From Paracoccaceae bacterium (GTDB lineage Bacteria; Pseudomonadota; Alphaproteobacteria; Rhodobacterales; Rhodobacteraceae): DNA of 64,000 nt. How positions within the stretch are numbered: the first letter of the stretch is position 1; each line of letters begins with the position of its first letter. This document shows positions 3,338 to 58,294 of the stretch, piece after piece. The translations under genes were made by a program, and so were the position numbers. The stretch covers positions 62,001-126,000 of the forward strand of contig JAPUEK010000005.1 of NCBI GenBank assembly GCA_027492585.1, given 5' to 3'. Under the pieces are notes generated by a model. It made no database searches and was not told where the DNA came from. It saw only the letters and a list, made by a program, of their open reading frames with translations.

Positions 3338-5374
3338 TCAGACGAAGCGCCGGGCCACCTCCTCCTCGTAGTTCCGTTCAAAAACCACGGTCTCGCCCTC
3401 ATAGGCCGTGAGCCGCGCCACCATCCGCAGATGCGTGCTCGTCCCGGTCATCCCGGCTTCCGCCACCGTCCGCACCTGCCAGTCGCCGCGCGACAGCCGC
3501 TGCTCCCAGCGGTGATGCGCCCGCGCGCTCAAGGGGTCCTCCGCGCCGATCTCCCAGATCTCGGTCAGGCTCTCGCCGGTGCAAAGCCCGTGGTCGAGGT
3601 TCTCGACCTCGCCGCTGTCCTCCACGACCACCAGGCGCTGAAGCCCGGAAAGAAGATCGCTCTCCACCCGCCGCTCCGACCGGCCCGGCCGCAGTACCCG
3701 ATGCTTCCAGGGGGCGGCGATCTCGGGCGCAGGCGGCTGCCATTCGGCAGCACCCTGCTCATGCACCGGCAGGCGCAGACCGCCGCCCGTGACCACCAGC
3801 CGCCCCGCCTCCGGCGACGGCCAGACGAACGGCCAGTAGCTGTTCGACAGCGCCAGCCGCAACCGATGCCCCGGCGCGAGCCGGTAGCCCATCTGGTCGA
3901 GGTCGAAGGCCAGATCGACCGCCTCGCCCGGCACCATCGGCTCCGGCGCCTCCCGGCTGTTGCGGTGGCAGAGGTTCGCCATCCCATGCGCGATCCGCAC
4001 CGAAGCCCCGTCCGGCGCTACATCGCAAAGCCGCGCCACCACGAAGCCCAAAGGCTTGTCGGAGGCGATCCGCAATTCCAGCCGCGCCGCGCCCAGCAAC
4101 TCCAGCGGCGCCTCCAGCACCGGCCCGTCGAAACACAGCGACAGCGCATCGTCGCGCCGCTGATCCCCCGGCATCTCGGCATTGAGCCCCATGGGGAAGA
4201 ACTCCCCCGCCTCCATGCCCAGGGTCTGCGGCGTGGCGATCACCGCCTCGAACCCCGCCCTTTCTTCTCTTTCCAAATATCCCCGCCGGAGGCTTCCCCC
4301 CTCCCCGCCGGACGCAAGGCTCCAATCCTGCCACGCGACCCGCGCCGGCGGCCATTCCGCCTCCGCCACCCAATGCCCGGCCCGATGGGGCGCCGAGGCA
4401 TCCGGCGGCTCGGAATGGAGGATATAGGCGCGATAGGCCGGGTCCTCCCCCGCGCCGGTGTCGATGCCCTTCAGCCAGCGATCCCACCAGCGCAAAGCCT
4501 CCTGCAGAAAGCCGATGCGCGGCCCCGGCACGGCGGTATGGGGGTATTGATGGACCCAAGGCCCGACGATCCCCTTCACCGGCGCCGGAACATTCTCGAC
4601 CAGCGCCGACACGGTGTTCATGTAATTGTCCGCCCAGCCGCCGACCGACAGCACCGGCACCGTCATCCGCGCATAATCCTCGCAAACCGAGCCATGCTTC
4701 CAATAGGCGCTGCGCGATTGCTCCGCCGCCCAGCGCGGCGCGAGCCAAGGCTCCGCCTCCAGCCGCGCGAGCCAGACCTCCCGCCAGTCGGCGCGCAACG
4801 CCGGGTCCGGCGGGCGGCTCGAATAGGCCAGCATCACCGCCCCCCAGCCGAAATTCTCGCCCAGAAGGCAGCCGCCCTTGAAATGGATGTCGTCGGCAAA
4901 GCGGTCGGTGGTCGAGCAGACCGAGATCACCGCCTTCAGCGCCGGCGGCTGCAGGAAGGCGGTCTGCAGGCAGTTGAACCCGCCCCAGCTCTTGCCCATC
5001 ATCCCGACCGCGCCGGAACACCACGGCTGGGCGGCCAGCCAGGCGATGACCTCGCAGGCATCGGCCAGCTCCTGCTCGGTATATTCATCGGTCATCAGAC
5101 CGTCGCTGTCGCCATTGCCGCGCATGTCCACCCGCACCGAGGCATAGCCATGCCCGGCGACATAGGGATGCATCATCTCGTCCCGCGGCAGGGTGCCGTC
5201 GCGCTTGCGATAGGGAATGTATTCGAGCACGGCGGGAACCGGATCGGCGCCGGCATCCTCCGGCATCCAGACCCGCGCCGAAAGCCGGCAGCCGTCCGCG
5301 AGAACGATCCCCATGTCCGGGATTTCGACGACGCGGCGAGGGAAATCGGTGACGGTCCTGGTGGCTGTCTGCAT
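3338..5374 (-). CDS. CocE/NonD family alpha/beta hydrolase (S15 peptidase-like)
   Basis: 678-residue serine hydrolase of the CocE/NonD family, related to X-Pro dipeptidyl-peptidase (S15) and cocaine esterase. The nucleophile elbow GKSWGG places the catalytic Ser at residue 129. A GGWADNYMNT segment supplies the likely Asp, and GPWVHQYPH the likely His. The C-terminal half is the beta-rich jelly-roll domain of this family. The gene sits behind the peptide importer on the same strand but is separated by 127 bases, so cotranscription is uncertain. Oddity: residues about 359-372 (LRRGYLEREER and flanks) are encoded by a copy of the dispersed intergenic repeat, read in frame without a stop. The substrate is unknown; ester, amide or dipeptidyl hydrolysis are all possible. 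Confidence 0.9.
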   Translation of the reverse strand: MQTATRTVTDFPRRVVEIPDMGIVLADGCRLSARVWMPEDAGADPVPAVLEYIPYRKRDGTLPRDEMMHPYVAGHGYASVRVDMRGNGDSDGLMTDEYTEQELADACEVIAWLAAQPWCSGAVGMMGKSWGGFNCLQTAFLQPPALKAVISVCSTTDRFADDIHFKGGCLLGENFGWGAVMLAYSSRPPDPALRADWREVWLARLEAEPWLAPRWAAEQSRSAYWKHGSVCEDYARMTVPVLSVGGWADNYMNTVSALVENVPAPVKGIVGPWVHQYPHTAVPGPRIGFLQEALRWWDRWLKGIDTGAGEDPAYRAYILHSEPPDASAPHRAGHWVAEAEWPPARVAWQDWSLASGGEGGSLRRGYLEREERAGFEAVIATPQTLGMEAGEFFPMGLNAEMPGDQRRDDALSLCFDGPVLEAPLELLGAARLELRIASDKPLGFVVARLCDVAPDGASVRIAHGMANLCHRNSREAPEPMVPGEAVDLAFDLDQMGYRLAPGHRLRLALSNSYWPFVWPSPEAGRLVVTGGGLRLPVHEQGAAEWQPPAPEIAAPWKHRVLRPGRSERRVESDLLSGLQRLVVVEDSGEVENLDHGLCTGESLTEIWEIGAEDPLSARAHHRWEQRLSRGDWQVRTVAEAGMTGTSTHLRMVARLTAYEGETVVFERNYEEEVARRFV
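4258..4297 (+). repeat. Dispersed AAATATCC repeat, solitary copy inside a CDS
   Basis: Left module CTTTCTTCTCTTTCC, core AAATATCC and right module CCGCCGGAGGCTTCC. This matches the intergenic copies at 32564 and, in its left module, at 7134 and 28013. Unlike all others it lies inside a gene (CocE-family hydrolase, minus strand), which reads it as an open frame encoding LRRGYLEREER. Its core points in the plus direction like every other solitary copy in the window. Confidence 0.9.
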
Positions 5375-7053: not shown

Positions 7054-7086
7054 CCTTTCCGGAAAAGCCGCGCGGGTGGGGACCGC

Positions 7087-7172
7087 GGAAGCCTCCGGCC
7101 GGGATATTTGAGAAGAGAAGAAACCCGGAAAGGCCCTTTCTTCTCTTTCCAAATATCCCCCGCGGAGCGTTC
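7087..7172. repeat. Dispersed AAATATCC repeat, inverted pair
   Basis: Two units head to head. The left unit (7087-7123) is on the minus strand with left module TTTCTTCTCTTCT and right module CCGGCCGGAGGCTTCC. The right unit (7134-7172) is on the plus strand with CTTTCTTCTCTTTCC and right module CCCGCGGAGCGTTCC. The arms are partly complementary and could form a long imperfect stem. It lies between the convergent sulfatase and GMC genes, where it may act as a bidirectional terminator. Confidence 0.88.
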
Positions 7173-7203
7173 CCCGGCCGGTGCAGGGCGCGCGGGCGGA
7201 AAA

Positions 7204-17398: not shown

Positions 17399-17418
17399 GC
17401 AAGCCGACCGGCCCGCCC

Positions 17419-17481
17419 CCTTCATCTTGCCTCAAATATCCTGCGGGGAGGTCCGGAGGGGTGCAAAACCCCTCCGGCGCC
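17419..17481 (+). repeat. Dispersed AAATATCC repeat, solitary long copy with hairpin
   Basis: Left module TTCATCTTGCCTC, core AAATATCC, then TGCGGGGAGGT and a perfect nine-base hairpin CCGGAGGGG / CCCCTCCGG with loop TGCAAAA. It sits between convergent genes (GlxA-type regulator and extradiol dioxygenase), so the hairpin can serve as a terminator. Confidence 0.9.
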
Positions 17482-26401: not shown

Positions 26402-26480
26402 CGGAACGCTCCGCGGGGGATATTTATGAAGAGAAGAAAGCCCTTTCATACTGGCTCAAATATCCCCGCCGGAGGCTTCC
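26402..26480. repeat. Dispersed AAATATCC repeat, inverted pair
   Basis: The left unit (26402-26440, minus strand) has right module CCCGCGGAGCGTTCC and a left module of the CTTTCTTCTCTTC type. The right unit (26441-26480, plus strand) has left module CCTTTCATACTGGCTC and right module CCGCCGGAGGCTTCC. The two units abut directly. It lies just after holA and may terminate that operon. Confidence 0.88.
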
Positions 26481-27974: not shown

Positions 27975-28052
27975 GGGAGCCTCCGGCGGGGATATTTGAG
28001 CCAGTATGAAAGGGCTTTCTTCTCTTTCCAAATATCCCCCGCGGAGCGTTCC
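27975..28052. repeat. Dispersed AAATATCC repeat, inverted pair
   Basis: The left unit (27975-28013, minus strand) has left module GCCCTTTCATACTGGCTC and right module CCGCCGGAGGCTCC. The right unit (28013-28052, plus strand) has CTTTCTTCTCTTTCC and right module CCCGCGGAGCGTTCC. It uses the same two module sets as the pair at 26402, swapped between arms. It follows the HPP-CBS gene by a few bases. Confidence 0.88.
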
Positions 28053-28148
28053 GCCGCTTTCCTCCCGCGACCGGCGCGGCGCCCGTGCCGCCCCTTGCCA
28101 GCATCCTGCCCCCGTGATCCTGTGGCGCATCGAAACCCGGAGCCTGCG

Positions 28149-32560: not shown

Positions 32561-32563
32561 TGC

Positions 32564-32601
32564 CCCTTCTTCTCTTTCCAAATATCCCCGCCGGAGGCTC
32601 C
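32564..32601 (+). repeat. Dispersed AAATATCC repeat, solitary copy inside operon
   Basis: CCTTCTTCTCTTTCC, core AAATATCC, right module CCGCCGGAGGCTCC. It starts three bases after the ATPase stop and fills most of the 70-base gap before the first permease gene. It lies within a cotranscribed unit, so it does not appear to be a full terminator. Confidence 0.88.
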
Positions 32602-32630
32602 GCCCTCCCCTCCCGCGCAAGGGGGCAGGC

Positions 32631-38728: not shown

Positions 38729-38819
38729 CGAACACCCCCCTGTCGCAAAGATGGGGCCGCAAAACAAGCCGGCCTTAGCGTCAATCGGCAGTCGTCCAGA
38801 CTTGGCAGCGCCCCCTGCC

Positions 38820-38884
38820 CCCTTCTTCTCTTCTCAAATATCCTGCGGGGAGGTCCGGAGGGGTGCAAAACCCCTCCGGCGCCG
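38820..38884 (+). repeat. Dispersed AAATATCC repeat, solitary long copy with hairpin
   Basis: Left module CCTTCTTCTCTTCTC, core AAATATCC, TGCGGGGAGGT and the CCGGAGGGG/CCCCTCCGG hairpin with loop TGCAAAA. It combines the left module of the short type with the right module of the long type. It lies between the mscS-type start and the end of the enoyl-CoA hydratase gene, 38 bases downstream of the latter in its reading direction. Confidence 0.9.
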
Positions 38885-44192: not shown

Positions 44193-46481
<2,289 letters not shown>

Positions 46482-58119: not shown

Positions 58120-58275
58120 GGGAGCCTCCGGCGGGGATATTTAAGGCAAGATGAAAAGCCACGGGTCCCCGCCTGTCCGGAATCAGACCGGGCATGACGG
58201 ACCCGAACGCCCCCCTTCATCTTGCCTCAAATATCCTGCGGGGAGGTCGGGAGGGGCGCAAAGCCCCTCCGGGGC
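58120..58275. repeat. Dispersed AAATATCC repeat, inverted pair with 57-base spacer
   Basis: The left unit (58120-58156, minus strand) has left module TTCATCTTGCCTT and right module CCGCCGGAGGCTCC. The right unit (58213-58275, plus strand) has TTCATCTTGCCTC, core AAATATCC, TGCGGGGAGGT and a CGGGAGGGG/CCCCTCCGG-type hairpin. The spacer is longer than in the other pairs. It fills the gap between the AlkB gene end and the RNase R start. Confidence 0.87.
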
Positions 58276-58294
58276 CGCAGCCGGAGCGCCGCCC

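Follow-up and report, generated by a model that had tools for sequence, protein, structure and literature searches.

A copy of a dispersed repeat is read in frame within an intact gene coding for a CocE/NonD-type hydrolase, in a 64,000-nt stretch of the genome of a Paracoccaceae bacterium (hereafter the window; Table 1). The identity of positions 4260-4297 as a member of this repeat family was confirmed, and the copy does not match those found at the same site in orthologous genes, all of which belong to one well supported clade of CocE relatives. The capture appears to be old, clade-wide and ancestral to the whole clade. We consider it likely that a single ancestral capture was followed by survival, decay or loss of the segment, with block overwriting or re-acquisition in some lineages.

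The hydrolase gene codes for a protein with two Pfam domains over cut-off, Peptidase_S15 (residues 27-277) and PepX_C (residues 324-555), whose nearest solved relative by sequence is cocaine esterase. Residues S129, D249 and H275, which we take to be the catalytic Ser, Asp and His of a CocE-type hydrolase, are invariant in 29 aligned relatives; the presence of both domains together with Ser, Asp and His identifies the product as a CocE/NonD hydrolase. A second CocE-like gene, 44% identical, is found in the same genome (G000:C51:37980-39974). The minus strand from 4297 to 4260 reads GGAAGCCTCCGGCGGGGATATTTGGAAAGAGAAGAAAG and is followed by GGC; it gives the peptide G-S-L-R-R-G-Y-L-E-R-E-E-R, so that the protein across the repeat reads ..SLRRGYLEREER.. 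(translation of gene 3338-5374). The original prediction had placed a repeat inside a CocE-family gene, adding LRRGYLEREER at about residue 360 with neither a stop nor a frameshift. All of this was borne out: the 38-mer on the minus strand occurs exactly at 3 other places, the peptide occupies residues 362-372, and the ORF is open over its full length. The G-rich stretch that directly precedes the copy is possibly a remnant of an older hairpin copy, namely of its G-rich arm.

Table 1. Hydrolase gene, its in-frame repeat copy and intergenic copies of the repeat in the window.
Coordinates	Strand	Feature	Basis
3338..5374	-	CocE/NonD-type serine hydrolase gene, 678 aa, intact	ORF + Pfam (Peptidase_S15 + PepX_C)
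4260..4297	-	In-frame repeat copy: short arm GGAAGCCTCCGGCGGGG + ATATTT + tail GGAAAGAGAAGAAAG	3 other exact 38-nt copies
4275..4280	-	ATATTT core: third base of GGA, then TAT TT of Gly-Tyr-Leu	
4298..4311	-	G-rich stretch directly 5' of the CocE repeat copy	
7059..7173	.	Tail-to-tail intergenic pair between convergent genes	Repeat survey of window
17412..17481	-	Intergenic copy with long hairpin arm	
26403..26480	.	Tail-to-tail intergenic pair, 27-nt register	
27975..28054	.	Tail-to-tail intergenic pair, 27-nt register	
32562..32602	-	Intergenic copy very close in sequence to the CocE copy	Families D2, D4, D7
38814..38883	-	Intergenic copy with long hairpin arm	
58207..58276	-	Intergenic copy with long hairpin arm	

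The segment had been expected between the alpha/beta core and the C-terminal beta domain. This was wrong, since it sits within the PepX_C beta domain itself. Modelling of the loop position, which had been proposed as a check, was carried out with AlphaFold2 (29 sequences, mean pLDDT 86.8) and located the insert as a turn between strands 346-355 and 364-368 inside this domain, its Gly-Tyr-Leu forming the start of the second strand. The turn is modelled with a pLDDT of about 72, which falls below 50 at residues 358-360. The length at this site varies also among CocE relatives lacking the repeat, and the insertion may have been tolerated for this reason.

The core pattern GGATATTT-N10-GAA has 401 matches in the 4.14-Mb genome and the reversed-pattern control none, which excludes chance for the CocE repeat. 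The 38-mer of the CocE copy has, besides its 3 further exact genomic copies, another 22 with 1-2 mismatches (reversed-pattern control, 0). A fortuitous resemblance arising in a G+C-rich gene, in favour of which nothing was found, has thus a negligible probability; the 38-nt identity to three other places stands against it, and so does the presence of further members of the repeat family at the same place in orthologous genes. The repeat unit is directional, of about 40-60 nt, and consists of an arm, ATATTT and a tail of about 12 nt. The arm is either short (CCTCCGGCGGGG or CGCTCCGCGGGG) or long, the latter being a hairpin such as CCGGGGGTTTCACACCCCCGG followed by ACCCCCGnGG. Tail-to-tail pairing in a constant 27-nt register is frequent, and the minus-strand copy of the pair located between convergent genes in the window has the same tail type as the CocE copy.

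A survey of 458 kb of the genome, in which genes called by our own simple caller account for 88% of the DNA, yielded 67 pattern matches: 65 intergenic, one in the CocE gene, and one chance match without a tail. The claim that the repeat is intergenic everywhere else therefore holds within these 458 kb, with 65 of 66 copies outside genes. Sixty-one intergenic copies had both neighbours called; 27 of them are flanked by convergent genes and 34 by co-directional ones. Divergent gaps contained none, yet they represent 51 of the 198 gaps of at least 60 nt. Copies between co-directional genes showed no orientation preference (18 sense and 16 antisense). This unbiased orientation, together with a wrong spacing (the long hairpin is located about 12 nt from ATATTT and not directly ahead of a T run), led us to set aside a classical intrinsic terminator as the identity of the repeat.

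Searches of the window with the Rfam 15 covariance models gave no family at the gathering threshold, and in loci L062, L072 and L088 the repeats were touched by chance-level Rfam matches only (E 0.17 and weaker). A match to the guanidine-II riboswitch was obtained in L072 (6274-6318, minus strand), with an Rfam score of 37.2 against a gathering threshold of 32. The Y1 transposase (PF01797) search was negative in the window's genome (0/1) and positive in 5 of 14 control genomes. Neither terminal inverted repeats nor a target duplication of the repeat were recognised by eye, and a description of the ATATTT repeat family was not found in the portions of the literature covered by our search, which included parts of PMC2267715, PMC2229807 and PMC8632094. 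Repeat tails are uniform within a genome and different between genomes (ACAGAAAATG, GAACAGGTGAA, TTGAACAGATGAA and GGAAAAGATGAA; L082, L089, L120, L093 and others), and some genomes have two or three tail classes. This pattern points to concerted evolution or to a changing binding partner. In 14 named loci (L066-L133) a short-arm (CCTCCGGCGGGG) intergenic copy is located at a similar minus-strand position (around 4741-4878), some 5 kb downstream of the CocE gene. It is also present outside the clade described below (L113, L123 and L127), and its tails differ between genomes; apparently, this orthologous intergenic copy has been maintained for a long time. Repeats with two hairpins were observed within the gene in L087 and in intergenic DNA at L088:2361 and L062:3223; in this form a second, variable hairpin is located between the first hairpin and the C-rich run preceding ATATTT. 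Elsewhere in the window (44524-44747), a 33-nt direct repeat array with at least 5 in-register copies (61-85% identity to the reference) probably corresponds to an 11-residue repeat within a coding region.

Relatives of the CocE protein came from two sources. A set with a single genome for each genus of the family gave a match in 91 of 198 genomes, and 30 loci were used; a named collection contained 294 relatives, for which 80 loci were retained. The length of the segment was measured between the conserved Trp (residue 335) and the conserved ..TPQHL motif, and the segment was scored as missing when fewer than 45 residues separated both anchors. The CocE tree was built without the segment using 107 rows, 98 of them different, after dropping L083, L138 and L140 as incomplete. 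All core-bearing rows fell within a single set of 47 rows (support, 99%). A careful tree of 52 rows chosen from the first one (40 inside and 12 outside) supported this clade with 100/99 and did not fix the place of the window's genome within it. The Trp-to-TPQHL interval was mostly of 34-43 residues outside this group and mostly of 45-77 within it. Using a core pattern slightly wider than that of the first tree, and applied to the 47 clade rows only, these were divided into 31 with the core, 13 long without it and 3 short. The 60 rows outside the clade comprised 57 short and 3 long ones, and the core was found in none of them.

In most clade genes the extra DNA is a member of the repeat family, commonly with the full hairpin, and it often carries the tail type of the host genome. 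The in-gene copy of L072 (CCGGGGGTTTCACACCCCCGGGCCCCCGTGGGATATTTGAGCCACATTGAA) gives the peptide PGVSHPRAPVGYLSHIE, and those of L098 and L131 are read in frame as PGGFTPPGPPVGYLGTDE and GGLSAPRTPRGYLQTDE, respectively; the in-gene peptide of L073 and L098 is PGGFTPPGPPV(E/G)YLG, L087 contains the two-hairpin form and L085 a doubled core. The proposal that a dispersed element contributes protein sequence is supported by the absence of the segment from 57 of 60 homologues outside the clade; the homologue alignment suggested for checking it agreed, the segment not being conserved in non-clade homologues, of which the 3 longer ones lack the repeat core. What the sequence alone could not reveal is that the capture would be ancestral to the whole clade and not private to one genome. 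Since loci outside the clade carry intergenic copies, the repeat family is older than the capture and the direction was from the repeat into the gene. The reverse, a repeat family derived from the CocE coding sequence, has nothing in its favour beyond the shared sequence and is very improbable, given that the repeat is present in genomes whose CocE gene lacks the segment (e.g., L107, L110 and L127) and that most homologues are devoid of it.

Other genes with in-frame copies were sought in 198 genomes of the family with a 22-residue peptide that resembles one hairpin type only, and no convincing mid-gene case was detected in the 30 best loci; these were mostly shadow frames as judged by codon-position G+C, and those in L180 and L188 were located just before a gene. 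Fourteen of the 170 pattern matches in the window's own and related loci were in coding-like open frames, 11 of them being CocE in-gene copies (a filter that missed some other in-gene CocE copies). The remaining three look like chance or non-coding matches and were rejected as further captures.

The in-gene copy of the window showed an identity of 1.00 to local copies and of at most 0.65 to any other in-gene copy. Since it equals the subfamily of its own genome and is far from its orthologues, it has probably been overwritten by this subfamily or inserted separately. When local sampling was limited to the 22-kb loci, 20 of the 22 in-gene copies were closer to another in-gene copy than to local intergenic ones, a pattern expected of descent that speaks against general overwriting; the two copies departing from it include that of the window. 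The strongest competing account is a separate second insertion in the window's lineage, and more generally this codon region could be an insertion hot spot with several independent entries, one of them recent in the window's genome. Such a history would account for a window copy that equals local ones and is unlike every in-gene orthologue, for the four different hairpin loops carried by sister rows L077, L094, L095 and L131, and for tail classes differing between hosts, and the loose place of the window's genome in the careful tree leaves room for a second insertion. However, the insertion is confined to one well supported clade, the core being absent from the 60 rows outside even though several of those loci carry the repeat; short rows are only 3 of 47 inside the clade, and Pseudotabrizicola and Cypionkella have decayed forms at this site, in line with an old insertion. 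We therefore regard a hot spot as rather unlikely, and infer a single insertion in the clade ancestor with later exchange in at least the window's lineage.

The reading phase was identical in all 29 in-gene cores examined, and the Tyr-Leu of the core was encoded by TAT TTG in 28 of 35 cases, TTG representing 22% of the Leu codons elsewhere in the same genes. By reading the sequence of the canonical tail (..TTTGAG..GATGAA), stops were found in both remaining sense frames, which leaves GYL as the sole frame able to survive. Pairing was analysed in 14 stems hand-picked as single-hairpin forms, leaving out double or strongly decayed ones (e.g., L074, L085, L087 and L133) and the short-arm copy of the window: 114 of 121 positions pair, compensatory changes occur (e.g., T-A to C-G, G-C to A-T), and none of 5000 arm shuffles of the 13 odd-length copies reached the observed pairing. 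The codon and pairing tests fit both selection on DNA or RNA and recent copying, and cannot separate them. In-gene tails fit those of their own genome (score of 168 versus a permutation mean of 140 and maximum of 163; 0/2000) in a test restricted to the 20 of 27 in-gene copies with local copies, using up to 8 local tails per genome in the permutation, removing local tails identical to the in-gene one, and without correction for the kinship of genomes. Among the nine genomes with at least 5 local tails, eight match a local copy at 10-11 of 11 tail positions and L072 at 7; in the same eight genomes the best other in-gene copy agrees at 9-11 positions.

These features bear on a further explanation, in which the captured copy would be kept for a role of the DNA or RNA element within the gene, for instance as a conditional transcription or mRNA-processing signal, and would follow the tail type of its genome via selection. 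The preservation of pairing by compensatory changes, the maintenance of the ATATTT codons, in-gene tails that follow the genome, and the location of intergenic copies at gene ends, avoiding divergent gaps, are in line with it. It is nevertheless unlikely, as the core has been lost in 13 clade members and the segment in three, the balanced orientation of co-directional copies is unlike that of a terminator, and the long hairpin is separated from ATATTT instead of standing right before a T run.

According to the preferred reading of a single ancestral capture, REP-like short directional repeats are spread through the intergenic DNA of many Rhodobacteraceae, and a full-length copy would have entered the CocE/NonD gene in the ancestor of one clade, at the turn of the C-terminal beta domain. 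The insert may have survived through tolerance, because it was in the repeat's only stop-free sense frame (Gly-Tyr-Leu-...-Asp-Glu) and lengthened a surface turn. Later, lineages would have differed in whether the captured copy persisted, decayed or was deleted. In some of them, including that of the window, it would have been overwritten as a block by the genome's own subfamily or re-acquired from it, most simply by conversion from, or insertion into, an existing copy.

Known cases in which selfish or repeat DNA has been captured in frame come mainly from Rickettsia and a few others (PMC2229807). REP/BIME elements are short G+C-rich intergenic hairpins present in hundreds of copies and often paired in opposite orientation. 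The family described here resembles them in its hundreds of G+C-rich hairpins (401 core matches), its opposite-orientation, fixed-register pairs, and its location outside genes (65 of 66 copies) and outside divergent promoter gaps. It differs from REP/BIME in the conserved ATATTT, the purine-rich tail, the 27-nt tail-to-tail register, and the negative search for a Y1 transposase in the window's genome. According to PMC2229807, Rickettsia palindromic elements (RPE) measure 105-146 bp, combine a long stem-loop with terminal inverted repeats, and have been reported from 19 reading frames. Like RPE (PMC2229807), the CocE repeat is a dispersed hairpin repeat, also intergenic, inserted in frame in a conserved protein-coding gene and apparently tolerated. 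Unlike them, its family has a unit of about 40-60 nt with a directional tail, which does not correspond to 105-146 bp with terminal inverted repeats, none of which were seen; CocE is the only capturing gene found so far; and the captured copy differs between relatives and equals the host subfamily in the window's genome. By analogy, the CocE capture would work like that of RPE, with a different family involved. Correia/NEMIS and other bacterial MITEs are, according to the same source (PMC2229807), small non-autonomous repeats able to form in-frame fusions with genes, and are similar in this respect; the repeat studied here differs from them in having no terminal inverted repeats or target duplication recognised by eye and no known parent transposase.

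In this free-living family, one gene and one branch of origin offer intact, decayed and lost descendants together with host-specific inserts, a system in which the way a dispersed repeat turns into protein sequence, and any homogenisation of these repeats inside a genome, could be tested directly. Tentatively, and with somewhat more doubt than confidence, we propose that the captured copy may still be a live member of its family, remaining in frame while being overwritten by, or kept in step with, the changing subfamily of its host. If true, the sequence of one stretch of the protein would be set by how a dispersed non-coding repeat evolves, and related species would carry different peptides there.
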